Part shown: in pieces, positions 31,214-46,901 of the stretch | Layout: every line of letters starts with the position of its first letter | Numbering within the stretch: position 1 is the first letter of the stretch | DNA from: Methylocystis rosea | GTDB taxonomy: Bacteria > Pseudomonadota > Alphaproteobacteria > Rhizobiales > Beijerinckiaceae | Direction of reading: 5' to 3' | Length of the DNA stretch: 64,000 nt | Assembly (NCBI RefSeq): GCF_003855495.1 | Contig: NZ_CP034086.1 | Location: 3,137,501-3,201,500, forward strand | Notes under the pieces: generated by a model | What the model saw: only the letters and a program-made list of their open reading frames with translations | The model's database searches: none | What the model was told of the DNA's origin: nothing | Program-made: the position numbers and the translations under genes

Positions 31214-32065
31214 GTGCTTGTTGAATTCCCTCGCCTCTGGCCGTGGCTTCTCGCCTGTTTCGCCATCGGCGCCGCCGCCGGGGCGTTGACCCGGCGCGCG
31301 CCTGAAAACGGCATCGTCGCCCGCTGGCTGGTGTGGACCGCGCTCGCTTTCGGCGTCGGCCTCCTTCTCGTCCGCCTCGGCGCGCTCGACGCCGCCGCGC
31401 CTTTGGTCGAGGGCGGGCTCGCGGCCTATGCGGCATTGATTATCGGCGCCGCCCTCGGCGCCTTGGCCAGGCATCGTTCGATCTGGGCGCATGAGGGCTG
31501 GGCCGTAGGGCTGGTCGCCGCCTCGCTCCTCTGGGTCGGAGCGGTCGTGATCGGCCAGTCCGACGGCGAAGAGGGTCGCCGCCTGGCCGCGCCGACAAAA
31601 AGCGCGGGCGCCGACAAGCCGCCCGCGACGTCGCCGCCTGCCGACGAAACGCCAACCGCCGGCGCGACCATATCGCCCGTCCACGCGCAAGGGCCGAGCG
31701 CGTCAGCCACGGCCGTATCAGGCGGCATGACGCTCGTCGACTGCCAGACGGCCCTTAAAGCCTCTTCGACGCCCGGCGTACTGGTCTTTCGCAAAGGCAG
31801 CGCGCAACTCACGCCGTCAGCAACGCGCGCGCTCGACAAGGCGGCGGCGATCATTCGCCGGTGCCCGGAAAACGCGACGATCGCGATCAGGGGCCATGTT
31901 CGCGGTTCGGGCGCCAGAGCGCCCAATGACGCGCTGGCGCAGAGGCGCGCGGAGGCCGCGACGGGCTATATCGAGGGTCAGGGCGTCGGCGGGCGCCGCC
32001 TCGTCGCATCCCCCGGCGAACCGGATCAGGCGGAAAACCGCGCCCTCACCTTTGAGGTTCGATGA
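31214..32065 (+). CDS. Membrane protein with OmpA-like peptidoglycan-binding domain
   Basis: 283 residues from GTG 31214. The N-terminal part has three or four hydrophobic helices (about 5-125), then an Ala/Pro linker (about 130-170). The C-terminal OmpA-like domain (about 175-283) includes LVFRKGSAQLTPSATRALDKAAAI and the peptidoglycan-binding motif DALAQRRAEAATGY. It would be anchored in the inner membrane with the OmpA domain in the periplasm, a MotB-like arrangement. It lies between dnaN and glgP with no evident link to glycogen metabolism. Confidence 0.8.
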   Translation: MLVEFPRLWPWLLACFAIGAAAGALTRRAPENGIVARWLVWTALAFGVGLLLVRLGALDAAAPLVEGGLAAYAALIIGAALGALARHRSIWAHEGWAVGLVAASLLWVGAVVIGQSDGEEGRRLAAPTKSAGADKPPATSPPADETPTAGATISPVHAQGPSASATAVSGGMTLVDCQTALKASSTPGVLVFRKGSAQLTPSATRALDKAAAIIRRCPENATIAIRGHVRGSGARAPNDALAQRRAEAATGYIEGQGVGGRRLVASPGEPDQAENRALTFEVR

Positions 32066-32187
32066 GCAGCGCTCGGCGCCTCAACTTCAGGCGCCGGCGC
32101 GGCCCGGTAGCGCCAAATTCCAATTCTACTTAAAACAGCGGCCTCTAAGACTGTCTGGGGAGCCCCGTCCGCCGCGAAAGGATCGCC

Positions 32188-34641
32188 TTGAACGCTTTTG
32201 ACCCGCCCAAGGCCGCCCATAAGGCCGTCGTCGCCGCGCTGCGCGACGACGTGCAGCGGCGTCTCACTTACACGGTCGGCAAGGACAACGCCGACGCCAG
32301 TCCGCGCGACTGGTTCGTCGCGACCGCGCTTGCGACCCGCGATCGGCTCGTTCCTTCTTGGCTCGCGTCGACGAAGCGCAATTATCAGGAAGACCGGCGG
32401 CGCGTTTATTATCTCTCGCTCGAATTTCTGATTGGCCGACTGCTCATCGACACGCTGACCAATCTCGGCCTGACCGAGGCGATGCGCGACGCGCTCGCCG
32501 AACTTGGCGTCGACCTCGATATGCTGCGCGCCCTGGAGCCCGATGCGGCGCTCGGCAATGGCGGGCTCGGGCGCCTCGCCGCCTGTTTCATGGACAGCAT
32601 GGCGACGCTCGAAATCGCCGCCATGGGATATGGCATTCGTTACGACCACGGCCTGTTTCGCCAGACGCTCAAGGACGGCTGGCAGCATGAATATCCCGAA
32701 GACTGGCTCTCCTTCGGCAATTCCTGGCAATTTCCGCGGCCGGAAATCACCTATGACGTCGGCTTCTTCGGCCATGTCGAAAGTTCGCGCCTCGCCGACG
32801 GCATGCTGGCGCATGTGTGGCGGCCGGGCGAAACCATCGTCGCCGTCGCCTATGACACGCCCGTCGTCGGGTGGCGCGGCAAACACGTCAACACGCTGCG
32901 GCTGTGGTCGGCGAGAGCGCCTGACGCGCTGCGCCTCGACGCCTTCAATCAGGGCGATCACGTGGGCGCGCAATCGGAGCAGGCGCGCGCCGAGGCGATT
33001 TCCAAAGTTCTTTATCCAAGCGACTCGACGCCCGCGGGACAGGAGCTGCGGCTGCGGCAGGAATATTTCTTCGCCTCCGCCTCGCTGCAGGATTTGATCC
33101 GCCGTCACCTGAGGCAGACCGGCGACATCCACAGGCTCGCCGACAAGGTGGCGATCCAGCTCAACGACACGCATCCGGCGATCGGCGTCGCGGAACTGAT
33201 GCGGCTTCTCGTCGACGTCCACGGCGTTGAATGGAAGGAGGCCTGGCGCATCACCCAGGCGACCTTCTCCTACACCAATCACACGCTCTTGCCGGAAGCG
33301 CTCGAAACCTGGCCGGTGCAGCTGATGGAGCGGCTGCTGCCGCGCCACATGCAGATCATCTATCTCATCAACGCCATGCACCTCGACTGCCTGCGCGCCA
33401 AGGGCGCGAGCGACCCGGCGACGCTCTCCTCGGTGTCGCTCATCGATGAGCATAACGGCCGGCATGTGCGTATGGGCCATCTGGCGTTTCTGGGTTCGCA
33501 CAAGGTGAATGGCGTCTCGGCGTTGCATAGCGCGCTGGTCAAGGAGACGGTGTTCAAGGATTTCCATCGGCTCTACCCCGACCGCATCGTCAACAAGACC
33601 AATGGCGTCACCTTCCGCCGCTGGCTGCTCGAGGCCAATCCGCCGCTGTCGCGATTGCTCGCCGACACGATTGGCGCTGGCGTCTTCGATGAGCCGGAAA
33701 GACTGATCGAACTCGAGAAATTCGCCGACGACGTCGAGTTCCAGAACCGATTCGCGGCGGCCAAGCGCGAGAACAAGTCGCGCCTTGCGGCCACGGTCTT
33801 CGAGCGCGTCGGCGTCAGCGTCGATCCTGCCGCGCTCTTCGACGCGCAGATCAAACGAATCCATGAATATAAGCGCCAGCTTTTGAACGTGCTTGAAGCC
33901 GTCGCGCTCTATCAGGACATCATCGCGCAGCCGGCGCGCGAATTCGCGCCGCGGGTGAAGATCTTCGCCGGCAAGGCGGCGGCGAGCTATCATCAGGCGA
34001 AGCTCATCATCAAGCTCGCGAACGATGTGGCGAAGGTCGTGAACGCCGATCCGGCGACGCGCGGCCTTTTGAAGATCGTGTTCCTGCCGAATTACAATGT
34101 GAGCCTCGCCGAGATGATCATCCCGGCGGCCGATCTTTCCGAGCAGATTTCGACCGCCGGCATGGAGGCGTCCGGCACCGGCAATATGAAATTCGCGCTC
34201 AACGGCGCGCTCACCATTGGCACGCTGGACGGCGCCAATGTCGAAATCAGGGAGCGTGTCGGCGACGACAATATTTTCATCTTCGGCCTCACGGCGCAGG
34301 AAGTGGAGGAATGCCGCGCGAAGGGCATCGACGCGCGCGAGACGATCGCGGCGAGTCCCCGTCTCGCCGAGGCGCTGCGGGCGATCGCCGCCGGCGTCTT
34401 TTCGCCCGACGATCCGCACCGCTATGCGCAACTCGTCGATACGCTCACCTATTACGATCACTTTTTGGTCGCGAAGGACTTCGACTCCTATTGGGAGGCG
34501 CAGCGCCGCGTCGACGCCCGCTGGCGAGACCAGAAGGCGTGGCGGCGGTCGAGCATTCTCAATACGGCGCGTGTTGCATGGTTTTCCTCCGACCGCACGA
34601 TCCGCGAATATGCGCAAGAGATCTGGAATGTCGCGGTGTGA
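32188..34641 (+). CDS. glgP: Glycogen phosphorylase
   Basis: 817 residues from TTG 32188 (MNAFDPPKAAHKAVVAAL); the start codon is unusual but the N-terminus aligns with the family length. YYLSLEFLIGRLL, ALGNGGLGRLAACFMDS and the pyridoxal-phosphate lysine motif EASGTGNMKFALNGAL (near residue 670) identify the family, with NDTHPAIGVAELMR and HEYKRQLLN also present. It removes glucose-1-phosphate from non-reducing ends. First gene of the glg cluster. A palindromic repeat separates it from glgB. Confidence 0.97.
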   Translation: MNAFDPPKAAHKAVVAALRDDVQRRLTYTVGKDNADASPRDWFVATALATRDRLVPSWLASTKRNYQEDRRRVYYLSLEFLIGRLLIDTLTNLGLTEAMRDALAELGVDLDMLRALEPDAALGNGGLGRLAACFMDSMATLEIAAMGYGIRYDHGLFRQTLKDGWQHEYPEDWLSFGNSWQFPRPEITYDVGFFGHVESSRLADGMLAHVWRPGETIVAVAYDTPVVGWRGKHVNTLRLWSARAPDALRLDAFNQGDHVGAQSEQARAEAISKVLYPSDSTPAGQELRLRQEYFFASASLQDLIRRHLRQTGDIHRLADKVAIQLNDTHPAIGVAELMRLLVDVHGVEWKEAWRITQATFSYTNHTLLPEALETWPVQLMERLLPRHMQIIYLINAMHLDCLRAKGASDPATLSSVSLIDEHNGRHVRMGHLAFLGSHKVNGVSALHSALVKETVFKDFHRLYPDRIVNKTNGVTFRRWLLEANPPLSRLLADTIGAGVFDEPERLIELEKFADDVEFQNRFAAAKRENKSRLAATVFERVGVSVDPAALFDAQIKRIHEYKRQLLNVLEAVALYQDIIAQPAREFAPRVKIFAGKAAASYHQAKLIIKLANDVAKVVNADPATRGLLKIVFLPNYNVSLAEMIIPAADLSEQISTAGMEASGTGNMKFALNGALTIGTLDGANVEIRERVGDDNIFIFGLTAQEVEECRAKGIDARETIAASPRLAEALRAIAAGVFSPDDPHRYAQLVDTLTYYDHFLVAKDFDSYWEAQRRVDARWRDQKAWRRSSILNTARVAWFSSDRTIREYAQEIWNVAV

Positions 34642-34650
34642 GTAAGACTG

Positions 34651-34732
34651 CGTCATTGCGAGCGAAGCGAAGCAATCCAGCGTCGTTCGATCATATCTAG
34701 TTTGCTTCGTCGCTTCGCTCCTCGCAATGACG
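34651..34732. repeat. Inverted repeat between glgP and glgB
   Basis: CGTCATTGCGAGCGAAGCGA at 34651-34670 and onward is matched in inverse by 34704-34732 (GCTTCGTCGCTTCGCTCCTC and following). This repeat type is seen dispersed in alphaproteobacterial genomes. The transcript would fold it into one large hairpin 10 bases after glgP and 22 bases before glgB. Confidence 0.85.
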
Positions 34733-34754
34733 ATGCGGCTTCAAGGACGATAGA

Positions 34755-36962
34755 GTGACAAAAGCCGACTGGCGCGCTTCCGCAAATGACATCGACGCCA
34801 TCATCGGCGCGCGCCATGGCGACCCGTTCGCCGTGCTCGGCCTGCATGAAACGCCCGCGGGTTACGTGATCCGCGCGTTCGTCCCAGGCGCGACGCGAGT
34901 GGAGGCGATTGCGCCCGACGGCGCCATGATCGCGCCGCTGGGTCGCGTTCACGCCGATGGCTTCTTCGAAGGGGTGACGCCGCTGAAGGCGCGTGCGCCG
35001 TATCGCCTTGTCGCCTCGAACGACGCGGCGCGAGGGGAATTCGCCGACCCTTACGCCTTTTCCCCGGTGCTCGGTCCCACAGACGACCATCTTCTCGTCG
35101 AGGGCGCCCATCAGAAGCTCTATGACAAGCTCGGCGCGCATGTGCTGACGCATGAGAGCGTCGAGGGAACGCATTTCGCCGTCTGGGCGCCGAACGCCAA
35201 GCGCGTCTCCGTCGTCGGCGACTTCAACCAGTGGGACGGGCGCCGCGCGCAGATGCGCAAGCGGATCGACAGCGGCGTCTGGGAGATCTTCGTTCCCGGC
35301 GTTGGGGCGGGCGCGAATTACAAATACGAAATCATCGGGCGGCATGGCGAGCTCTTGCCGCTCAAAGCCGATCCGCTCGGCTTCGAGGCGGAGCTGCGGC
35401 CTTCGACCGCTTCCGTCGTCGCCTCGAACGCGCCCTATCACTGGGGCGATGAGAGTCACATGCGCGCGCGCGCCGAAGTTGACCCGCGACGTTCGCCCAT
35501 GTCGGTCTATGAAGTGCATCTGCCGTCGTGGCGGCGCGGCGAGGATGGGCGCTTTCTCACCTATGACGAACTCGCCGATCAGCTCGTGACCTATGTCGCC
35601 GATCTCGGCTTCACGCACATCGAGTTGATGCCGATCAACGAGCATCCGCTCGACGCCTCCTGGGGCTATCAGCCGATAGGGCTCTTTGCGCCGACGCGGC
35701 GGCACGGCGACTCCTATGGCTTTCGCCGCTTCGTCGATCGCGCGCATCAGGCCGGCCTCGGCGTCATTCTCGACTGGGTTCCGGCGCATTTTCCGACCGA
35801 TGAACATGGCCTCGCGCAATTCGACGGCGGGCCGCTCTATGAGCATTCCGATCCCAAGCGCGGTTTTCATCCCGACTGGAACACCGCGATCTATGATTAC
35901 GGGCGTCGCGAGGTGGCGAATTTTCTCATCGCCAGCGCGCTCTATTGGCTCGACCGCTTCCACATCGACGGGCTGCGCGTCGACGCCGTCGCCTCCATGC
36001 TCTATCTCGACTATTCGCGAAAGCCGGGCGAATGGTCGCCAAATCCCGACGGCTCCAATGACAATCGCGACGCCGTCGCCTTTCTTCAAAAGTTCAATTC
36101 GCTCGTCTACGCGCTTTATCCGGGCGTCGTGACGATCGCTGAGGAATCGACCGCCTGGGCCGGCGTGACGCGGCCGACATATGCAGGCGGACTCGGCTTC
36201 GGCTTCAAATGGAACATGGGGTGGATGAACGATACGCTGCGCTATCTTTCATCCGAACCCGTCCATCGCAAATGGCGCCATAGCGAGCTGACCTTCGGCC
36301 TGCTCTACGCCTTTACCGAAAACTTCGTGCTGCCGATCTCCCACGACGAGGTCGTGCACGGCAAGGGCGCGATCGTCGGCAAGATTCCCGGCGACGAATG
36401 GCGCCGCTTCGCGACAGCGCGCGCCTATTACGGATTCATGTGGGGCCATCCCGGCAAGAAGCTCCTGTTCATGGGTCAGGAGTTTGGTCAGACGGGCGAG
36501 TGGAATTTCGCGAACAGCCTCGACTGGTGGTTGCTCGATTTTCCCCCGCATCGCGGACTTCAGGCGTTCATTCGCGATCTCAACCGCGTCTATCGCGAAA
36601 ACGAAGCGCTCTACGCGCGCGACTGCGAGGCCGAAGGCTTTCAGTGGATCGTCGCGGACGACGCGGAGAGTTCGGTATTCGCCTTCGCGCGTTTTGGCGC
36701 GGATCGTTCCCGCGCGATCGTCGTCGTCACGAATTTTACGCCGGTGACGCGCAGCGCCTATCGGCTCGGCTTGCCGCGCGCGGGACGCTGGCGTGAACTC
36801 GTCAATTCCGACGCGGCGATCTATGGCGGCTCGGGACTTGGCAATCTTGGCGCGATTCATGCGCGCGCCGAACCGTTCCGCGACTTTCCCGCGAGCGCCG
36901 AAATTCTTCTGCCGCCGCTGTCGACTCTCTTCTTCGCATTCGAAAGCGATGAATTAGAATGA
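34755..36962 (+). CDS. glgB: 1,4-alpha-glucan branching enzyme
   Basis: 735 residues from GTG 34755. An N-terminal CBM48-type domain (about 15-225; VWAPNAKRVSVVGDFNQWDGR) precedes the GH13 catalytic barrel. Catalytic residues are visible: the nucleophile Asp in GLRVDAVASMLYLDYSR, the acid Glu in TIAEESTAW, and Asp in LPISHDEVVHGKG. The C-terminal domain is of the GH13 beta-sandwich type. It makes alpha-1,6 branches. A 48-base GC-rich region with a second repeat lies before glgC. Confidence 0.97.
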   Translation: MTKADWRASANDIDAIIGARHGDPFAVLGLHETPAGYVIRAFVPGATRVEAIAPDGAMIAPLGRVHADGFFEGVTPLKARAPYRLVASNDAARGEFADPYAFSPVLGPTDDHLLVEGAHQKLYDKLGAHVLTHESVEGTHFAVWAPNAKRVSVVGDFNQWDGRRAQMRKRIDSGVWEIFVPGVGAGANYKYEIIGRHGELLPLKADPLGFEAELRPSTASVVASNAPYHWGDESHMRARAEVDPRRSPMSVYEVHLPSWRRGEDGRFLTYDELADQLVTYVADLGFTHIELMPINEHPLDASWGYQPIGLFAPTRRHGDSYGFRRFVDRAHQAGLGVILDWVPAHFPTDEHGLAQFDGGPLYEHSDPKRGFHPDWNTAIYDYGRREVANFLIASALYWLDRFHIDGLRVDAVASMLYLDYSRKPGEWSPNPDGSNDNRDAVAFLQKFNSLVYALYPGVVTIAEESTAWAGVTRPTYAGGLGFGFKWNMGWMNDTLRYLSSEPVHRKWRHSELTFGLLYAFTENFVLPISHDEVVHGKGAIVGKIPGDEWRRFATARAYYGFMWGHPGKKLLFMGQEFGQTGEWNFANSLDWWLLDFPPHRGLQAFIRDLNRVYRENEALYARDCEAEGFQWIVADDAESSVFAFARFGADRSRAIVVVTNFTPVTRSAYRLGLPRAGRWRELVNSDAAIYGGSGLGNLGAIHARAEPFRDFPASAEILLPPLSTLFFAFESDELE

Positions 36963-37020
36963 AGATCGAATCGAGCAGGGCGATGAAGATGTCCGCTTCA
37001 AGAGATCGGGGCAGGGGTTT

Positions 37021-37073
37021 CCTCATCCTGAGGAGGCCCGAAAGGGCTTCGAGACGCCGCCTCAGCATGAGGG
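37021..37073. repeat. Palindromic repeat between glgB and glgC
   Basis: CCTCATCCTGAGGAGG at 37021-37036 pairs loosely with CCGCCTCAGCATGAGG at 37057-37072 around GCCCGAAAGGGC. It belongs to the same family as the copies at 53608-53715 and 53775-53824. Confidence 0.8.
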
Positions 37074-37127
37074 CGAAGGCGCCCCATTCGCGCGATCACC
37101 GCGTCATCGATTTGTTGGGAACTGGCG

Positions 37128-38390
37128 ATGTCCGCCTTTGAAAATCCGCCCCTCGCGCGCCACGCCATGGCCTATGTCCTCGCCGGCGGCCGCGGCGCTC
37201 GGCTGATGGAATTGACCGACAGGCGCGCCAAGCCCGCGGTTTATTTCGGCGGCAAGTCGCGCATCATCGACTTCGCGCTCTCCAATGCGCTGAACTCCGG
37301 CATCAGGCGCATTTGCGTTGCGACGCAGTACAAAGCGCACAGCCTCATCCGCCATTTGCAGCGCGGCTGGAGCTTCTTTCGCACCGAACGCAACGAGAGC
37401 TTCGACATTCTGCCGGCAAGTCAGCGCGTGTCCGAAGATCATTGGTATCTCGGCACGGCGGACGCCGTCTATCAGAACCTCGACATCGTCGAGAGCTATG
37501 ATCCCAAATATATCGTGCTGCTCGCCGGCGATCACGTCTACAAGATGGATTACGAGCCCATGCTGCAACAGCATGTGGATTCCGGCGCCGACGTGACGAT
37601 TGGCTGTTTCGAGGTGCCGCGCGCCGAGGCGTCCGGTTTCGGCGTCATGCATATCGACGAAAACGACCGCATCATCTCCTTCATCGAAAAGCCGCGCGAT
37701 CCGCCGGCAATGCCGGGACGTCCGGACCGTGCGCTCGTCAGCATGGGCATCTATGTTTTCGAGGCGAAGTTTCTCTACGAGCAATTGCGCCGCGACGCCG
37801 CGGAGACGCTCTCGACGCATGACTTCGGCAAGGATTTGATCCCCTATATCGTCTCGCACGGCAAGGCGGTCGCGCATCATTTCGAGCGCTCCTGCGTGCG
37901 CGCGGCGAGCGAGCCCAACGCCTATTGGCGCGACGTCGGGACGGTGGACGCCTATTGGGCGGCCAATATCGATCTCACCGATTTCACGCCGCAGCTCGAT
38001 CTTTACGATCGCAACTGGCCGATCTGGACATATGCCGAAATCACCCCGCCGGCGAAATTCGTGCACGACCAGGTCGGACGGCGCGGACAGGCGCTGTCCT
38101 CGCTCGTCTCGGGGGGCTGCATCGTTTCCGGCTCGACGCTGCGGCGAACGCTGCTCTTTACCGGCGTGCGCGTGAATTCCTACGCGACCGTCGAGAACGC
38201 CGTCGTCCTGCCCTATGTCGACGTCGGCCGCTCGGCGCGACTCACCAATGTCGTCGTCGACCGCGGCGTGCAGATCCCGCAGGGCCTTATCGTTGGGGAG
38301 GACCCGGCGTTAGACGCCGCGCGTTTCCGCCGCACCGAGGGCGGGGTCTGTCTCATCACCCAGCCGATGATCGACAGGCTCGGCGCATGA
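37128..38390 (+). CDS. glgC: Glucose-1-phosphate adenylyltransferase
   Basis: 420 residues. The nucleotide-binding signature [24 protein letters not shown] lies at about 12-35 and the [17 protein letters not shown] motif follows. The C-terminal left-handed beta-helix contains the [20 protein letters not shown] repeat region. It makes ADP-glucose, the rate-setting step of glycogen synthesis, and is normally allosterically controlled by sugar phosphates. The stop overlaps glgA (ATGA). Confidence 0.97.
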
Positions 38391-39844
38391 GTTCGCTGCG
38401 CGCGCTCGCCATTGCTTCGGAGATGGCGCCTTTGGTCAAGACCGGCGGACTCGCCGATGTCGTCGGCGCGCTGCCGCATGCGCTCGCCGCTGAAAACATC
38501 GAGCTGCGCACGCTCATTCCGGGCTATCCCGAGGTTCTCGGCGTCTTACATGCGGGCGAAACGGTTCTTGAGTTCGATGATCTCTTTGGCGGCCCGGCCT
38601 GGATCCACGCGGCGCGCCATAACGGAGCCGCGATCTATGCGCTCATCGCGCCGCATCTTTATGCGCGCGAAAGCGGACTCTATACGGGACCGGACGGCGC
38701 CGATTATCCCGACAACGCCTTCCGCTTCGCCGCGCTCGCCTGGGCCGGCGCGCAGATCGGGCTCGGCGCGCTCGATGGCTTTACGCCCGACGTTGTGCAT
38801 GCGCATGACTGGCAGGCGGCGCTCGCGCCGGCCTATATGCATTATGCAGAGCGGCCGCGGCCGGCGACGATCGTCAGCATCCACAACATCGCCTTCCAGG
38901 GACAATTCCCCAAAGAACTGCTGCAGCCTTTGCGACTGCCGCCGCACGCGTTCGATATCGACGGCGTCGAATATTACGGCGCGATCGGCTTCTTGAAGGC
39001 TGGCCTGCAACTCGCCGACCGCATCACCACGGTGTCACCCAGCTATGCACGCGAGATCGAGACGCCGGAATTCGGCATGGGCCTCGAGGGCCTGTTGCGC
39101 GCACGCGCGGATCGCGTGAGCGGCATATTGAACGGCGTCGATGAAGAGACGTGGAATCCGGCGACCGATGCGCATCTTGGAACGCGCTACGATCATTGGA
39201 GCCTGCCGTCGCGCGCCAGGAACAAGGCGGCTTTGCAGAAACGTCTGCGACTGCGCGTCGATCCCGACGCCTTTCTCCTCGGCGTCGTCAGCCGGCTGTC
39301 CTGGCAGAAGGGGCTCGACCTGCTGCTCGACGTTTTGCCGCAGCTCATGCGCGGCCGCGCGCAACTCGCGCTGCTTGGCGCTGGCGACAAGACGCTTGAA
39401 GAAGGATTTGTCGCTGCAGAAGCGGCGCATGTGGGCCGCGTCGGCGTTCATATCGGCTATAGCGAAGAGCTTGCGCATATGATCCAGGCTGGCGTTGACG
39501 CCTTCCTCGTGCCGTCGCGCTTCGAGCCTTGCGGACTGACGCAGCTCTATGCGCTGCGCTACGGCGCCGTGCCGATCGTTTCGCGCGTCGGCGGACTGAA
39601 AGATACGATCGTCGACGCCAATGAGATGGCCCTGCAGGCCGACGTCGCCACCGGCCTGCAATTTTCGCCGACGACCGCCGATGCGCTCGCCATCGCGCTG
39701 CGCGAAGCCGAACGCCTATTCGAGGACGCCGAGACGTGGCGCAAGATTCAGGTCAATGGCATGAGAACGGATGTCTCCTGGCGCAATCCGGCGCGCCGCT
39801 ACGCAAGGCTGTTTCGGGACGTGGCCGCCACGAGGGTTGGGTGA
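38387..39844 (+). CDS. glgA: Glycogen synthase, ADP-glucose type
   Basis: 485 residues from ATG 38387, which overlaps the glgC stop. The long frame upstream of this start is a shadow of glgC. The ADP-glucose binding motif [13 protein letters not shown] lies near residue 18, and the GT5 fold continues with [13 protein letters not shown] and [28 protein letters not shown]. It adds glucosyl units from ADP-glucose. Tight coupling to glgC suggests a fixed ratio of the two enzymes. Confidence 0.97.
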
Positions 39845-39860
39845 CTGTTTCGGCGATAAA

Positions 39861-39998
39861 GCCCCCTCCCTGTCCCTCCCCCGCTTTCGCGGGAGAGGGA
39901 ACCCTAGCGATCGGCATAGCGCGCGATGTGCGACATGCGCCGCGTCTGCCTCCCTCTCCCCCAAGCGAAGCGCAGCGGGGGAGGGATGGGGAGGGGGC
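39861..39998. repeat. Inverted repeat upstream of glgX-malQ
   Basis: 25-base arms at 39861-39885 and 39974-39998 are inverse complements except at two positions. The arms begin GCCCCCTCCC and the right arm ends GGGGAGGGGGC, one base before the ATG at 39999. The right arm therefore appears to form the ribosome binding site of the next gene. Confidence 0.85.
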
Positions 39999-42900
39999 AT
40001 GAGCGGCGTCACCGAGGGCGCGCCGGAGCCGCTCGGCCTCACGCCGGACGCGAGCGGCGCGAATGTCGCGGTGTTTTCCGCTCATGCGGAGGCGATCGAA
40101 CTTTGTCTCTTCGATGATTCCGACGAGGAGATCGCCCGCATAAAATTGCCGGCGCGCAGCGGCGACGTTTTTCATGGCCATATCGAGGGCCTCACAGAAG
40201 GCCAGCGCTATGGCTTTCGCGCTCACGGACCCGATGCGCCGGAGGCGGGCCATCGCTTCAGTCCGGCGAAACTGCTCGTCGATCCTTATGCGCTGGCGCT
40301 CGATCGCGCCTTCACGCTGCATCCTTCGCTCTTCGCCTATGGCGAGACGGCGCGTGTCGACAGCGCCCTGCATGTGCCGAAAGCCATTGTCACGAAGCCA
40401 GTCCCTGCGGAGTCGCTGCGGCCAAAGCATCCCTGGCGCGATACGATCATCTACGAGCTTCACGTCAAGGGTTTCACCGCGACGCATCCCGACATTCCGC
40501 AACATCTGCGCGGGACCTTCGCCGGTCTCGCGCATGACGCGGCGATTGCGCATTTGAGGCGGCTCGGCGTCACGACGCTGGAGCTTCTGCCTTGCGCGGC
40601 GTGGATCGACGAGCGTCATTTGCCGCCACTCGGCCTTTCCAATTACTGGGGCTACAATCCCATCGCCATGATGGCGCCCGACCCGCGCCTCGCACCGGGC
40701 GGCTGGCGTGAAGTTCGCGAAGCCGTCGCCAGGCTCCACGACGCCGGGCTCGAAGTCATTCTTGACGTCGTGTTCAACCATACCGGCGAGAGCGACGAAT
40801 TCGGCCCGACAGTCTCGTTCCGAGGATTGGACAACGCCAGCTATTATCGGCTCGCTGACGACCGCGCGCGCTATGTGAACGACTCCGGCTGCGGCAATAT
40901 TCTCGACTGCGACCGTGCGCCTGTCGTGCGGCTCATCATGGATGCGCTGCGCGCCTGGGCGGTCTATGGCGGCGTCGATGGCTTTCGCTTCGATCTCGCG
41001 ACGACGCTTGCGCGTCGATCCTCGGGGTTCGATCGCGACGCGCCACTGCTTTCGGCCATCCTGCAAGACCCGGTGCTGCGGGACTTAAAGCTCATCGCCG
41101 AACCCTGGGACATGGGCCAAGGCGGCTATCGGCTCGGCGATTTTCCCGAGCCTTTCGCCGAATGGAACGATCGCTATCGCGACAGCGCGCGCGGTTTCTG
41201 GCGCGGCGACTCCTGCGGCGTCGCCGAGCTCGCGACGCGCTTTTCCGGCTCGCAGGACGTGTTTGCGCGCAGGCGCCCGTCACGCAGCGTCAATTTCATT
41301 ACGGCGCATGACGGCTTCACTCTGCGTGATCTCGTTTCCTACGCGCATAAGCACAATGAAGCGAACGGCGAAGAGAACCGTGACGGCGCCGACCACAATC
41401 TTTCCTGGAACAATGGCGTCGAAGGCGAGAGCGCAGACGCCGCGATCCATGCGGCGCGGGCGCGGGATGCGCGCAATCTGCTCGCGACGCTGCTTTTCTC
41501 TCGCGGAACGCCGATGCTTGCGATGGGCCCGGAGTTGGGTAAGACGCAGTCCGGCAACAATAACGCCTATGCACAGGACAACGCCCTCTCATGGATCGAT
41601 TGGGCGCACGCCGACGAAGAACTGATCGCGACGACGTCGAAGCTCATCGCACTGCGCAAGCGACACGCGGCCTTGCACGATGATCGCTTTCTCGACGGCG
41701 CGCCGCGTGACGCTTCGCTCATCCCCGACGTCGAATGGTTGCGTCCTGACGGCGCGACGATGCGCGAAGACGACTGGCGCGACGGCGATGCGCAGACGCT
41801 TGTCGCCGCGCTTTATGCCGAAGGCGATCGGGTTCTCGTGATTTTGCATCGCGGTTCCGGCGAGATCATCGTGCGCCCGCCCCCCGCTCGTGACAATCAC
41901 GGCTGGAAATGGGCGTTTAATTCGGCGAACGACGGCGCGACCGAAGACGTTGAACAATTCCTCCGTATGGGGCCGCGCTCCGTGGCGCTTCTGATCGAGG
42001 AAAAGCGCGCGCGGCGCCGATCTTCCGCGCCTGCTTCGGAAGACATCCTCTCGCGTCTCGCCGAGGCGACAGGCGTTGAACGACAATGGCGCGACGTCGA
42101 AGGCGGGCTGCATGATGTACCGCGCGAGACGGTCTGCGCACTATTGGCGCAGCTCGGCTTTCCGTCCTGCACGCTCGATGAGGCCCGCGAGAGTCTCGCG
42201 CGGCTTTCGGACTTTCGCGACAGGCGGGCCCTTCCCGCAAGTTTACCGGCTAGGGAGGGCAAGTCCTTCACGCTTCGGCTCGCCGCGCGCGACGGCCGCA
42301 CGCCGGGCTGGATCGTCGTCACGCAGGAAGGCGGAAGCTGTTCGCACATCGCGCTGCGCGCGGAGAACGCCGCACCCGTCACATGGCGCGGATTGGATGG
42401 CCGGCGCTGCGACGGCGTCGAGGCGCGAATGCCGCCGATGCCCGCCGGTCGTCATCATTTGTCGATTGAGGGCGGCGAAGACTGTGCGCTCACTATCGCG
42501 CCGCCGCGCTGCTATCTGCCTCACGATGCGCGCCGCGAATTTGGTCTCTCCGCACAGCTCTATTCCGTTCGCCGCGACGGCGATCAGGGAATCGGCGACT
42601 TCTCGACGCTTAGCGAACTCGCGCGCGCTGGCGCCAAGGCCGGCGCGGCGCTCATCGCGATCAATCCGCTGCACGCCTTGTTTGCGCAAGACCGCACGCG
42701 CGTCAGCCCGTATTATCCGTCCGACCGGCGTTTCCTCGATCCGCTCTATATCGATGTCGTTGCATTGCAGCGCACGCTCGGCGCGTCCTTTGATTTCGCC
42801 GAGAAGACCACGGCTCTCAGCGCCGCCGCGGATGTCGACTATCCAGCCGTTCATGCGCTGAAGATGGAAGCGCTCGAACGCGCCTTCGCCGTCTTCCTTA

Positions 42901-44213
42901 ATCTGTCGCGCCGCCAGCCTGACGCCGCGCCCGCCGCCTCATTCGCGCGCTTCGTCGCCGAGGGCGGGGCGGCGCTCGCGCGCTTCTGCGTCTTCCAGGC
43001 GATCAGCGAGGCGCGCAACGGCCAAAGCTGGCGGATGTGGCCGAAAGAGCTGCGTGAGGCGCGCCCCGCGGCGCTGAGCGCCTTCGCGCGCGAACATGCG
43101 ACGCGGGTCCAATTTCACCAATTTCTGCAATGGCTCGCCGATGCGCAATTTGCGCGATCCGCGCAGGACGCGCGCGCCGCTGGTCTGTCGCTCGGCTTCT
43201 GCCGCGACCTCGCCATCGGCGCGGCGCCCGACGGCGCCGAGAGCTGGAGCCGCGCGGGATGTTTCGTCGACGGCTTTTCGATCGGCGCGCCGCCCGACGC
43301 CTTCAGTCGGGAGGGCCAGAATTGGGGCTTGCCGCCGCCAAATCCAATCGAAATCGGGAAGAACGGGGGCGCCGATTTCGCGGAGCTGCTGCGCGCCAAT
43401 ATGCGCCACGCGGGCGCGCTGCGCATCGACCACGTCATGGGCCTGGCGCGGCTTTTCGTCATTCCGGACGGCGAAAAGCCTGCGGCCGGCGCTTACGTCA
43501 ATTACCCGTTCGAAACCTTGATGGGTCAGCTCGCGCTCGAAAGCCAACGCGGGCAATGTCTCGTCGTCGGCGAAGATCTCGGCACGGCGCCGTGGGGCTT
43601 CCGCGAGCGCATCGCCCATGCCGACGTGCTGAGCTACCGGGTTCTATGGTTCGAACGTTCGGGAGAGGGCTTCGCGTCGCCGACGCACTATCCCATGAAA
43701 GCCATGGCCTGCGTCTCGACGCATGACTTGCCGACGCTTGAAGGCTGGTGGGCGGCGGCGGACATCGCCGAGAAGGAAGCCCTGGGGCTGATCGCGCCAG
43801 ACCTGGCCGAAGCCGCCCGCGCTGCGCGCCGCGCGGAAAAGGACGCGCTTCTCGACGCATTGCGCGCGCAGTCGCTGATCGACGGCGCGCATCACGCATC
43901 AAACGACTTCGACGACGCCTTGGCTCGGGCGCTCCATGCCTTCATCGCGCGCACGCCGTCATTGCTCGCCATGGCGCAACTCGACGATCTCGCGGGGCAA
44001 ACGCAGGCGATCAACTTGCCCGGCACCGATCGCGAACGCTTGAACTGGCGACGCAGACTGCCAGAATCGCTCGACGCGCTCTTTGATTTGCGCCGCGCCC
44101 GCGCGATCCTCGCCGGGCTTTGCCGCAATGTGGACGCGATTCCCGGCGCATATCGGCCTCCGGGCGAAATTGATGCCGCGGACGGACATGAGCGTTTCGA
44201 GCATGGCGGGTAA
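39999..44213 (+). CDS. GlgX-MalQ fusion: debranching enzyme plus 4-alpha-glucanotransferase
   Basis: 1404 residues. Residues about 1-670 are a GlgX-type isoamylase/debranching enzyme: a CBM48-like start, then GH13 with D332 in FRFDLAT, E368 in IAEPWD and D438 in TAHDGF. After a short basic linker (about 668-680), residues about 680-1404 are a MalQ-type GH77 4-alpha-glucanotransferase, with D1144 in LRIDHVMGL, E1192 in VVGEDLG and D1243 in STHDLPT. All six predicted catalytic residues are intact and no stop interrupts the join, so both halves should be active. The protein would couple debranching of glycogen to transfer of the released maltodextrins. The ATG is preceded directly by the right arm of an inverted repeat. 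Confidence 0.93.
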   Translation: MSGVTEGAPEPLGLTPDASGANVAVFSAHAEAIELCLFDDSDEEIARIKLPARSGDVFHGHIEGLTEGQRYGFRAHGPDAPEAGHRFSPAKLLVDPYALALDRAFTLHPSLFAYGETARVDSALHVPKAIVTKPVPAESLRPKHPWRDTIIYELHVKGFTATHPDIPQHLRGTFAGLAHDAAIAHLRRLGVTTLELLPCAAWIDERHLPPLGLSNYWGYNPIAMMAPDPRLAPGGWREVREAVARLHDAGLEVILDVVFNHTGESDEFGPTVSFRGLDNASYYRLADDRARYVNDSGCGNILDCDRAPVVRLIMDALRAWAVYGGVDGFRFDLATTLARRSSGFDRDAPLLSAILQDPVLRDLKLIAEPWDMGQGGYRLGDFPEPFAEWNDRYRDSARGFWRGDSCGVAELATRFSGSQDVFARRRPSRSVNFITAHDGFTLRDLVSYAHKHNEANGEENRDGADHNLSWNNGVEGESADAAIHAARARDARNLLATLLFSRGTPMLAMGPELGKTQSGNNNAYAQDNALSWIDWAHADEELIATTSKLIALRKRHAALHDDRFLDGAPRDASLIPDVEWLRPDGATMREDDWRDGDAQTLVAALYAEGDRVLVILHRGSGEIIVRPPPARDNHGWKWAFNSANDGATEDVEQFLRMGPRSVALLIEEKRARRRSSAPASEDILSRLAEATGVERQWRDVEGGLHDVPRETVCALLAQLGFPSCTLDEARESLARLSDFRDRRALPASLPAREGKSFTLRLAARDGRTPGWIVVTQEGGSCSHIALRAENAAPVTWRGLDGRRCDGVEARMPPMPAGRHHLSIEGGEDCALTIAPPRCYLPHDARREFGLSAQLYSVRRDGDQGIGDFSTLSELARAGAKAGAALIAINPLHALFAQDRTRVSPYYPSDRRFLDPLYIDVVALQRTLGASFDFAEKTTALSAAADVDYPAVHALKMEALERAFAVFLNLSRRQPDAAPAASFARFVAEGGAALARFCVFQAISEARNGQSWRMWPKELREARPAALSAFAREHATRVQFHQFLQWLADAQFARSAQDARAAGLSLGFCRDLAIGAAPDGAESWSRAGCFVDGFSIGAPPDAFSREGQNWGLPPPNPIEIGKNGGADFAELLRANMRHAGALRIDHVMGLARLFVIPDGEKPAAGAYVNYPFETLMGQLALESQRGQCLVVGEDLGTAPWGFRERIAHADVLSYRVLWFERSGEGFASPTHYPMKAMACVSTHDLPTLEGWWAAADIAEKEALGLIAPDLAEAARAARRAEKDALLDALRAQSLIDGAHHASNDFDDALARALHAFIARTPSLLAMAQLDDLAGQTQAINLPGTDRERLNWRRRLPESLDALFDLRRARAILAGLCRNVDAIPGAYRPPGEIDAADGHERFEHGG

Positions 44214-45540
44214 CCAAGCCACCGAGCGCGGGCTCATCTCTGCGGCGCTCTTTGCGATTTCTGTCGCATTTTCCGCGCATGCCGAACAACAAGGTCCAGA
44301 CGCCAAAGACATCTCGTCGAAGCAACAAGAATTGCGCGGCGTCGAAGACACGATGGGCGCCGCCCAGGAGCGCGCGCGTCGACTCGAAGAGCAGCTTGTC
44401 GATCACGCCGCCGCGCGCGAACGACTGAATGGCGCGCTCATCGAAGCGACGCAGCGGCTGCAGGAGACGGAAAGTCGCGCGGCTGAAATCGAAGAGCGGC
44501 TTTCGGCGCTCACCGAGAATGAGCGCAAGATCGTCTCTTCGCTCGAGAGCCGCCGCGGATTGATCATGGAGATCCTTACCGTTCTGCAACGGATGGGCCG
44601 TAAGCCGCCGCCGGCGCTGATCGCGCGTCCGAACGAGATTCTCGAGGCCGTCCGGGCGTCGCTCGCGCTCGGCGCCCTGCTGCCGCAAATGCGCGCCGAA
44701 GCGCGCCAGCTGCAGCGCGATCTATCGGAGCTGGAGCAGGTGCGCGATGGCGTTCGGCGCGAGCGCGAACGCCTCGCGGAGCAGCAAGCGAGTCTCAGCG
44801 CTCAGCGCGAAAGGCTCGCCCCGATGATCGGAGAACGTCAGGAGGCGCTTTCCACTGCGCAAAGCGCCTTGCAGGCGGAGACGGAGCGCGCGCGCACGCT
44901 GGCGCAGCGCGCCACGAGCCTCAAAGACCTGATCTCGCGCATGGAGGCGGACAGCGCGGCGGCGCGGCGCGCGGCGGAGGCGGCGCGCAAGGCCGACGAC
45001 GAGCGTACAAAAGCTCAAGCGATGCTTTCCGAGCGGGAGCGGCTCAAAGCGCTGTCTGCGCCGTTCAAGGATCCGGCGCGGCTTGCACCCGCCGTCGCTT
45101 TCATTGATCTTAAAGGCCGGCTGCCGGCCCCGGCCGCGGGATCGGTGGTGCGGCGTTTCGGCGCGCCCGACGGTTTTGGCGGCAAGGAGAAGGGCCTGTC
45201 GATCGCGGCGCGCGAAAATGGGGTGGTTATCGCTCCCTGCGACGGATGGATCGCTTTTTCAGGGCCTTACCGAAGTTATGGACAACTCTTGATCATTAAC
45301 GCCGGCGGCGGTTATTATGTGGTCCTGGCCGGCATGAGTCGCACCAATGTGAACGTGGGACAGTTCGTTCTCGCAGGTGAGCCGGTTGCCAGCATGGGAG
45401 ACGGAGCCGCGCAAACCGCGGCGACCATCGCAATCGGCGCGAAACAACCCATTCTTTATGTTGAGTTCCGCAAGGACGGAGCGTCAATCGACTCGGGCCC
45501 ATGGTGGGCAAAGTCAGACAGTCGGAAGGTCGGCGGATGA
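44188..45540 (+). CDS. EnvC-like murein hydrolase activator
   Basis: About 450 residues; start chosen at ATG 44188, overlapping the end of the fusion gene, with 44173 and 44203 as alternatives. A signal peptide (ISAALFAISVAFSAHAE) precedes a long coiled-coil region (about 30-300, Glu/Arg/Ala-rich). The C-terminal LytM/M23-like domain (about 320-440) contains VVRRFGAPDGFGGKEKGLSIAARENGVVIAPCDGWI. The canonical HxxxD and HxH zinc ligands are absent, as in EnvC, so it probably activates amidases rather than cutting peptidoglycan itself. ctpA follows with an overlap. Confidence 0.88.
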   Translation: MSVSSMAGNQATERGLISAALFAISVAFSAHAEQQGPDAKDISSKQQELRGVEDTMGAAQERARRLEEQLVDHAAARERLNGALIEATQRLQETESRAAEIEERLSALTENERKIVSSLESRRGLIMEILTVLQRMGRKPPPALIARPNEILEAVRASLALGALLPQMRAEARQLQRDLSELEQVRDGVRRERERLAEQQASLSAQRERLAPMIGERQEALSTAQSALQAETERARTLAQRATSLKDLISRMEADSAAARRAAEAARKADDERTKAQAMLSERERLKALSAPFKDPARLAPAVAFIDLKGRLPAPAAGSVVRRFGAPDGFGGKEKGLSIAARENGVVIAPCDGWIAFSGPYRSYGQLLIINAGGGYYVVLAGMSRTNVNVGQFVLAGEPVASMGDGAAQTAATIAIGAKQPILYVEFRKDGASIDSGPWWAKSDSRKVGG

Positions 45541-46901
45541 TTCGCAAAACAGCCCTTATCGCCACAGGAATCGCAATTGGAGCGGGATGCGCCACGCTTG
45601 GCCAGCAGGCGCGCGCCGTCATCGGCGCTCCGGCTCAAGCCGCTTCCGCCGACACCTACAAGAACCTCAGCCTGTTTGGCGACGTGTTCGACAAGGTGCG
45701 CGCCGACTATGTCGAGAAGCCCGATGAGCAAAAGCTCGTCGAAAACGCCATCAACGGCATGCTGACCTCGCTCGATCCGCATTCGAGCTACCTGGACGCC
45801 AAGGCCTTCAAGGATATGCGGACGCAGACCGAGGGCAAGTTCGGCGGCTTGGGCATCGAGGTCACGCAGGAAGACGGGCTCGTGAAGGTCGTCACGCCGA
45901 TCGACGACACGCCAGCGTCGCGCGCCGGGATCATGTCCGGCGATCTCATCGGCGCCATCGACGACGAGACCGTGCAGGGCATGACCCTCAATCAGGCCGT
46001 CGACAAAATGCGCGGCGCGATCAACACGCCTGTCAAGCTGACGCTCTTCCGCGGCAAGAACAAGGACAAGGTCGAGGTCAAGCTGGTCCGCGCCGAGATC
46101 CACATCAAATCCGTGCGCTCGCGCAAACAGGGCGACGACATCGCCTATGTCCGTATTTCGCAGTTCAATGAAGAAACCGCGGAGGGCCTGCGCACCGCCA
46201 TGGCCAAGGCGCAGCAGGACATCCCCGCGGACAAGTTCAAAGGCTACATCCTCGATCTGCGCAACAATCCGGGCGGCTTGCTGGATCAGTCCATCCAGGT
46301 CGTCAACTCCTTCATCGACAAGGGCGAGATCGTCTCGACGCGCGGCCGCAACGCTGATGAAACCCAGCGCTACAACGCCCGCGGCTCCGGCGATCTGTCG
46401 AAGGGCAAGCCGGTCGTCGTGCTGATCAACGGCGGTTCGGCCTCGGCGTCCGAAATCGTCGCCGGCGCTTTGCAGGATCACAAGCGCGCGACGCTGATCG
46501 GCACGCGCTCCTTCGGCAAGGGCTCGGTGCAGACGATCATTCCGCTCGGCGGCTCCAGCGGCGCGTTGCGGCTGACGACGGCGCGCTATTACACGCCGTC
46601 CGGCCGCACGATCCAGGCCAAGGGCATCGATCCCGACATGATCATCCTGCAGGACGTGCCGGACGAGCTCAAAGGCAAGGACGACACCAAGGGCGAAGCC
46701 TCGCTGAAGGGCCATCTCAAGACTGGCGACGAGGAAAAGACCGGCTCGCAAGCTTATGTCCCGCCGGATGAGGCGAAGGACAAGCAGCTGACGGCCGCGG
46801 TCGAGCTTCTGCACGGCAAGCCGAGGGCGCAGATCCTCGCCGAACAGTCCAAGGAAGTCGCCAAGGACACGACCAAGCCGCCGTCAAAGGCCGCCAATTG
46901 A
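45537..46901 (+). CDS. ctpA: Periplasmic S41 C-terminal processing protease
   Basis: 454 residues from ATG 45537 (MIRKTALIATGIAIG), overlapping the preceding stop as ATGA. A signal anchor (about 1-30) leads to a helical domain, then a PDZ domain (about 95-180; GIEVTQEDGLVKVVTPIDDTPA). The catalytic core has the Ser in NGGSASASEIVAGAL and the Lys in GKGSVQ of the SFGKGSVQTIIPLGG motif. It cleaves C-termini of envelope proteins. Pairing with an EnvC-like gene is common in Rhizobiales and suggests a cell-wall remodelling unit. Confidence 0.95.
   Translation: MIRKTALIATGIAIGAGCATLGQQARAVIGAPAQAASADTYKNLSLFGDVFDKVRADYVEKPDEQKLVENAINGMLTSLDPHSSYLDAKAFKDMRTQTEGKFGGLGIEVTQEDGLVKVVTPIDDTPASRAGIMSGDLIGAIDDETVQGMTLNQAVDKMRGAINTPVKLTLFRGKNKDKVEVKLVRAEIHIKSVRSRKQGDDIAYVRISQFNEETAEGLRTAMAKAQQDIPADKFKGYILDLRNNPGGLLDQSIQVVNSFIDKGEIVSTRGRNADETQRYNARGSGDLSKGKPVVVLINGGSASASEIVAGALQDHKRATLIGTRSFGKGSVQTIIPLGGSSGALRLTTARYYTPSGRTIQAKGIDPDMIILQDVPDELKGKDDTKGEASLKGHLKTGDEEKTGSQAYVPPDEAKDKQLTAAVELLHGKPRAQILAEQSKEVAKDTTKPPSKAAN

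Follow-up and report, generated by a model that had tools for sequence, protein, structure and literature searches.

A Methylocystis rosea gene predicted to encode complete GlgX and MalQ enzymes on one chain for the second stage of glycogen breakdown

In Escherichia coli, the glycogen debranching enzyme GlgX and the 4-alpha-glucanotransferase MalQ are encoded in two operons. The eukaryotic glycogen debranching enzyme is organized differently, and its deficiency results in a human glycogen storage disease. The closest bacterial description is the NCBIfam entry NF011082 (PRK14510.1-1, bifunctional glycogen debranching protein GlgX/4-alpha-glucanotransferase), which joins these two domains in the order seen in the gene described here. 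This gene, a fused glgX-malQ, occupies positions 39999..44213 on the + strand of a 64,000-nucleotide stretch of the Methylocystis rosea genome (contig NZ_CP034086.1, positions 3,137,501 to 3,201,500; hereafter the window, to which all coordinates refer), and its product comprises 1404 residues (~154 kDa). We consider it very probable that the protein is a genuine fusion of two enzymes that performs the second stage of glycogen breakdown.

Translation of positions 39999-44213 yields 1404 codons without an internal stop, confirming the single uninterrupted frame reported by a first-pass annotation of this DNA. The surrounding stop-to-stop frame (39771-44213, 1480 aa) opens upstream of the ATG at 39999, which we take as the start because relatives have their protein starts there, give or take a few residues. 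The GlgX half (40017..41990, + strand; residues ~7-664) consists of a CBM48 domain at residues 11-98, a GH13 catalytic part and a C-terminal beta domain, and matches TIGR02100 at residues 7-664 with 849.2 bits against a cut-off of 640.9, covering positions 2-685 of the 688-position model. A linker (41991..42044, + strand; residues ~665-682) connects it to the MalQ half (42045..44126, + strand; residues ~683-1376), which is composed of an N-terminal part and a GH77 catalytic part at residues 853-1356. The latter half matches TIGR00217 at residues 811-1362 (365.4 bits, cut-off 205.65), PF02446 (382.6, cut-off 25) and the longer MalQ model NF008274 at residues 682-1374 (516.9 bits, below its cut-off of 806). 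The six catalytic residues named in the first-pass annotation were found where it had placed them: the residues aligned with the GH13 nucleophile, acid/base and third carboxylate (D332, E368 and D438) and with the GH77 triad (D1144, E1192 and D1243) are intact in all 44 fused loci that we collected. They are likewise intact in 45 loci with separate glgX and malQ genes, the GlgX residues also in 23 loci with GlgX only, and all are invariant across a 34-row alignment. A predicted model of the whole protein (mean predicted local distance difference test score, pLDDT, 86.5; predicted template modelling score 0.78) is confident in both halves, and in a fold comparison the modelled part of each half could be matched to an enzyme of solved structure. 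The counterparts, by both sequence and fold over most of their length, are E. coli GlgX (2wsk) and MalQ (4s3p/4s3r), two proteins where the fused gene encodes one chain. As judged from these alignments and models, the frame carries a complete GlgX and a complete MalQ.

Measured against NF011082, the protein aligns almost end to end (residues 3-1376 of 1404; model positions 5-1406 of 1410), scoring 1717.7 bits where the cut-off demands 2511, and is therefore a relative that lies outside the curated equivalog set. None of the 385 genomes in a class sample or the 398 in a phylum sample reaches this cut-off, and a same-order genome scoring 2209.8 bits also falls below it. The architecture is already named in NCBIfam and is not new.

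The frame is retained in nine of ten close Methylocystis-type loci from other assemblies (L032-L041). The tenth (L041) derives from a metagenome-assembled genome (MAG) and carries a frameshift near residues 570-582, within the GlgX homology and away from the joint; the stop or frameshift near residue 670 that would have spoken against a fusion is not seen in these relatives. Comparisons with the nine relatives gave ratios of nonsynonymous to synonymous substitution rates (dN/dS) of 0.16-0.21 for GlgX, 0.16-0.42 for the N-terminal part of MalQ and 0.21-0.32 for its catalytic part, and purifying selection acts on both halves. A separate feature of these alignments is the 3′ end of the gene (window positions 44091-44240), where dS is only 0-0.05 over residues 1377-1404 relative to L032-L037. 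This strong conservation among Methylocystis probably arises because a gene for an M23 peptidase starts inside the fused gene in another frame.

Fused genes of this type occur well beyond Methylocystis. A scan of named genomes, in which the best 80 of 446 relatives were kept and long matches were hence favoured, gave 41 fused loci (two of them with a compact GH77), 19 with separate genes on the same stretch and 20 with GlgX only, the last figure being subject to the truncations described below. Unbroken frames spanning both domains occur in at least 3 of the 385 genomes of the class sample, a lower bound because the reading there covered 26 adjacent pairs (L112-L137), and in at least 15 of the 398 genomes of the phylum sample, in addition to one frame with an internal TGA. 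Further candidates from the class sample, with frames of 1420-1531 aa, were dropped, as stops lie between the genes (L119-L126). The statement that GlgX and MalQ are usually separate proteins thus holds as a rule, and the same two-domain order recurs in several lineages. We also considered whether unfused loci might be joined by stop-codon read-through and rejected this idea: 13 of 34 near pairs share a frame, where about one third would be expected by chance. These pairs were drawn from the 45 separate loci after exclusion of two with frameshifts (L041, L081) and nine with large gaps. In the accessible text of PMC8062543, Methylotuvimicrobium alcaliphilum has its MalQ and its GlgX listed under one and the same accession, either by mistake or because this species carries another fusion.

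Unfused glgX and malQ genes are commonly neighbours, an arrangement from which an assembly error could create a merged frame. However, the long frame is present in nine other close assemblies and in just over half of the 80 best named loci, and both halves are under the selection described above. Such an artefact is extremely improbable for the gene in the window, and for the family it is refuted.

The history of the fusion was approached with FastTree trees of 112 GlgX rows and 89 MalQ rows, both unrooted. In the MalQ tree, a group with a support of 99 takes in most alphaproteobacterial fusions; of its 33 rows, 31 are fused and two are frameshifted MAGs. In a 50-row tree built under a mixture model the 14 sampled members of this main group cluster with a support of 100. 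A Burkholderiales locus (L066) attaches to the group with a support of 91. Fused loci from Magnetococcales, Leptospiraceae, Sandaracinaceae and the alphaproteobacterial Kordiimonadaceae fall outside it. A single clade of all 21 sampled fused MalQ halves was rejected by an approximately unbiased (AU) test on a quick tree (p 0.00293); the test used 50 rows and 21 of the 44 fused loci, and left aside L076 and L083, whose GH77 is of another type. The rejection implies either several fusions or one old fusion followed by several splits, between which unrooted trees cannot distinguish. Taken alone, the starred branches of the 50-row tree require just two changes of the fused label.

The two excluded loci derive from Gemmatimonadota MAGs (L076:7998-11648 and L083:7836-11636), in which a GlgX of the alphaproteobacterial type is fused to a compact GH77 of a different subtype. 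With NF011080, the GH77 of L076 reaches 670.4 bits against 477, and PF02446 is matched over its full length by both compact domains (559.2 and 545.3 bits, respectively). This combination points to a second fusion event or to a swap of the GH77 domain. In the GlgX tree, GlgX-only members are interspersed with fused ones, and the stand-alone MalQ proteins of four GlgX-only genomes belong to another lineage, outside the fused clade. Several of the 23 GlgX-only loci are incomplete: in L078 and L080, which run off the contig, MalQ begins before the break, which identifies them as truncated fusions; L086 and L111 are likewise cut, L077 lacks its 5′ end, and L075 is ambiguous. No convincing MalQ remnant follows the remaining loci, the best match having an E value of 0.085 (L096). 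As far as the sequences go, the GlgX-only pattern is compatible with loss of the MalQ half, although the truncated loci weaken this reading.

By analogy with the separate enzymes, the fused protein would take over where glycogen phosphorylase (GlgP) stops. The accessible portion of PMC11046441 states that GlgP halts four glucoses short of a branch, that GlgX/TreX prefers stubs with a degree of polymerization of 4 and that MalQ lengthens short glucans; according to the part of PMC8062543 at hand, MalQ removes the reducing-end glucose of small maltodextrins and transfers the remainder to another chain. In the pathway we propose, GlgP would trim the outer chains to four-glucose stubs, an activity established for the families, and the CBM48 of the GlgX half should keep the protein on the glycogen particle. 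The GlgX half is predicted to hydrolyse the alpha-1,6 bond and release maltotetraose, which would serve the MalQ half as a donor: its maltotriosyl unit would be attached at a non-reducing end, with one glucose set free. The chain so lengthened would let GlgP resume. The net reaction would convert a four-glucose branch and water into a neighbouring chain longer by three glucoses and one free glucose; this balance, like the activity of both halves, is deduced from homology. The benefit of joining the enzymes might lie in a hand-over of maltodextrins between the halves, as suggested in the first-pass annotation, in the anchoring of MalQ by CBM48 or in a fixed ratio only; we infer that the fusion mainly sets the enzyme ratio and holds MalQ at the particle.

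Several observations weigh against a fusion that works as a unit in this way. The linker is a short stretch of low conservation, with a dN/dS of 0.24-0.74 (computable in seven of the nine comparisons), and selection is weaker around the joint in general (0.26-0.83 over residues 640-700). A GTG at residue 662, preceded by a Shine-Dalgarno (SD)-like stretch matching at 4 of 6 positions, is a possible internal start. Seven of 11 GlgX-only genomes examined, among which is the ambiguous L075, have no GH77 that we could find, and GlgX can therefore persist without MalQ. In the open-access literature searched, we found no biochemistry on this protein or any other GlgX-MalQ fusion, nor, among titles and opening lines of abstracts, any paper devoted to such a fusion. 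Finally, the accessible text of PMC4837477 places the two sites of a fungal debrancher more than 50 Å apart and reports no preference for intramolecular transfer, which warns against assuming a hand-over between the halves.

A rival explanation is that the chain holds two independent enzymes, whose fusion fixes a 1:1 ratio with neither channelling nor anchoring to the particle. In its favour are the short, variable linker, the fungal precedent (PMC4837477) and the completeness of each half by sequence and by fold. On the other side, fused forms are scattered over the tree and GlgX has been joined to two types of GH77, which hints at a gain from fusion, though a fixed ratio would be a gain as well; we judge this explanation to stand at about an even chance. 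The joint also bears on whether the cell uses two separate proteins, produced by cleavage or by an additional internal start for MalQ. Linker residues 671-680 have a mean pLDDT of 68 as a block, below that of the whole model, and are arginine-rich, so that they could be cut, and translation of MalQ might conceivably begin at the GTG of residue 662. However, this GTG is the only in-frame start codon over residues 658-715, no in-frame ATG occurs between residues 658 and 760, and none of the six in-frame start codons over residues 600-760 exceeds 4 in a crude SD count with a maximum of 6, on which the ATG at 39999 scores 5. Together with the frame kept by nine of ten close relatives, these features make two separate products improbable. 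Linkers of a different kind were seen in Acetobacteraceae-type fusions (L050, L055, L078 and L080), which are long (46 residues in L055, 52 in L050); our impression is that the linker stretch of L078 and L075 resembles translated repeat sequence.

The function that we favour, the second stage of glycogen breakdown, agrees with the surroundings of the gene, which is the last of a cluster on one strand in the order glgP-glgB-glgC-glgA-[glgX-malQ]. Upstream of it lie glgP for glycogen phosphorylase (32188..34641, +; TIGR02093, 1145.4 bits, the sole match in the genome), glgB for the branching enzyme (34755..36962, +; TIGR01515, 915.6 bits), glgC for ADP-glucose pyrophosphorylase (37128..38390, +; TIGR02091, 497.8 bits) and glgA for glycogen synthase (38387..39844, +; NF010699, 771.1 bits, cut-off 762; start codon checked), the start of glgA overlapping the glgC stop (ATGA). 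Across the loci collected, the immediate upstream neighbour is glgA for 31 of 44 fused loci and glgB for 33 of 45 separate pairs. Consensus scans of positions 31900-45600 gave numbers near chance both for promoters (3, with 1.5 expected) and for terminators (16, with 13.5 expected).

At the sensitivity of our searches, the source genome holds one GH77, one GlgX above the cut-off and one GlgP, and no TreY above its cut-off was found in it. One further GH13 gene, located elsewhere, has a matched part of 437 residues; it is nearest to NCBIfam models of the BglA, TreC and TreS type and passes no cut-off. Leaving this gene aside, the only means that we found in this methanotroph-like genome of turning glycogen stubs back into usable chains is the fused gene. 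Of 41 genomes searched for GH77 (40 with fused loci and that of the frameshifted L041), 37 yielded no copy other than the one at the locus; some of the 41 are MAGs and possibly incomplete. A GlgX relative in genomes without any GH77 that we could find was observed for Kaistia and Prosthecomicrobium pneumaticum (L073, L074, L082, L084, L088 and L095) and for G070; in such genomes, something else must therefore handle the freed maltotetraose.

Downstream of the glgA stop, and directly adjoining the start codon of the fused gene, is a dispersed palindromic element of 138 bases (39861..39998, no strand assigned). Its 61 matches merge to at least 26 places in the genome, a lower bound because 40 of 76 first-look candidates were scored. 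At the same spot, L033-L037 carry the element with 90.6-97.1% identity, and L038 and L039 in a decayed form; a different spacer stands there in L032 and L041, and L040 gave no match. As RNA, it is predicted to fold with -103.2 kcal/mol (z -8.35), and the SD-like GGGGAGGGGGC falls within the predicted stem, immediately 5′ of the AUG. A scan of the whole window gave no Rfam family at gathering score for this hairpin. The element may separate expression of the breakdown gene from that of synthesis.

MalQ has been joined to other enzymes of alpha-glucan metabolism as well, with different partners: TreY in the MalQ-TreY fusion NF011077, and GlgB in a Neisseria glgB-malQ fusion (PMC11046441), in which MalQ is N-terminal. 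The comparison drawn in the first-pass annotation was with the eukaryotic debrancher, which likewise has two active sites per chain, and it stands for the expected net result, three glucoses moved and one freed, which on the bacterial side is a prediction. It does not extend to the families, the order of steps or the first bond cut. The eukaryotic enzyme combines an N-terminal GH13 transferase with a C-terminal amylo-1,6-glucosidase, a layout that the fused protein, a GlgX-type debrancher followed by GH77, does not share; the eukaryotic enzyme was not among the 50 rows of our fold comparison, and its absence there has no bearing on this point. According to the portion of PMC4837477 accessible to us, transfer comes first in the eukaryotic debrancher and is followed by removal of a single glucose; in the fused protein, the branch should instead be cut off whole at the outset.

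A more far-reaching reading, which we regard as rather unlikely, is that bacteria have on more than one occasion built a one-chain debrancher from unrelated parts, in which GlgX cuts off the four-glucose stub and the tethered MalQ immediately grafts three of its glucoses onto an adjacent chain of that particle, leaving the fourth free. If it were true, the balance would be that of the animal and fungal enzyme with its steps reversed. The scattered occurrence of the fusion and its second type of GH77 would allow the value of tethering to be compared across fused, split and GlgX-only relatives. Should the two sites cooperate, the protein would represent a bacterial counterpart, assembled from other parts, of the enzyme affected in the human disease.

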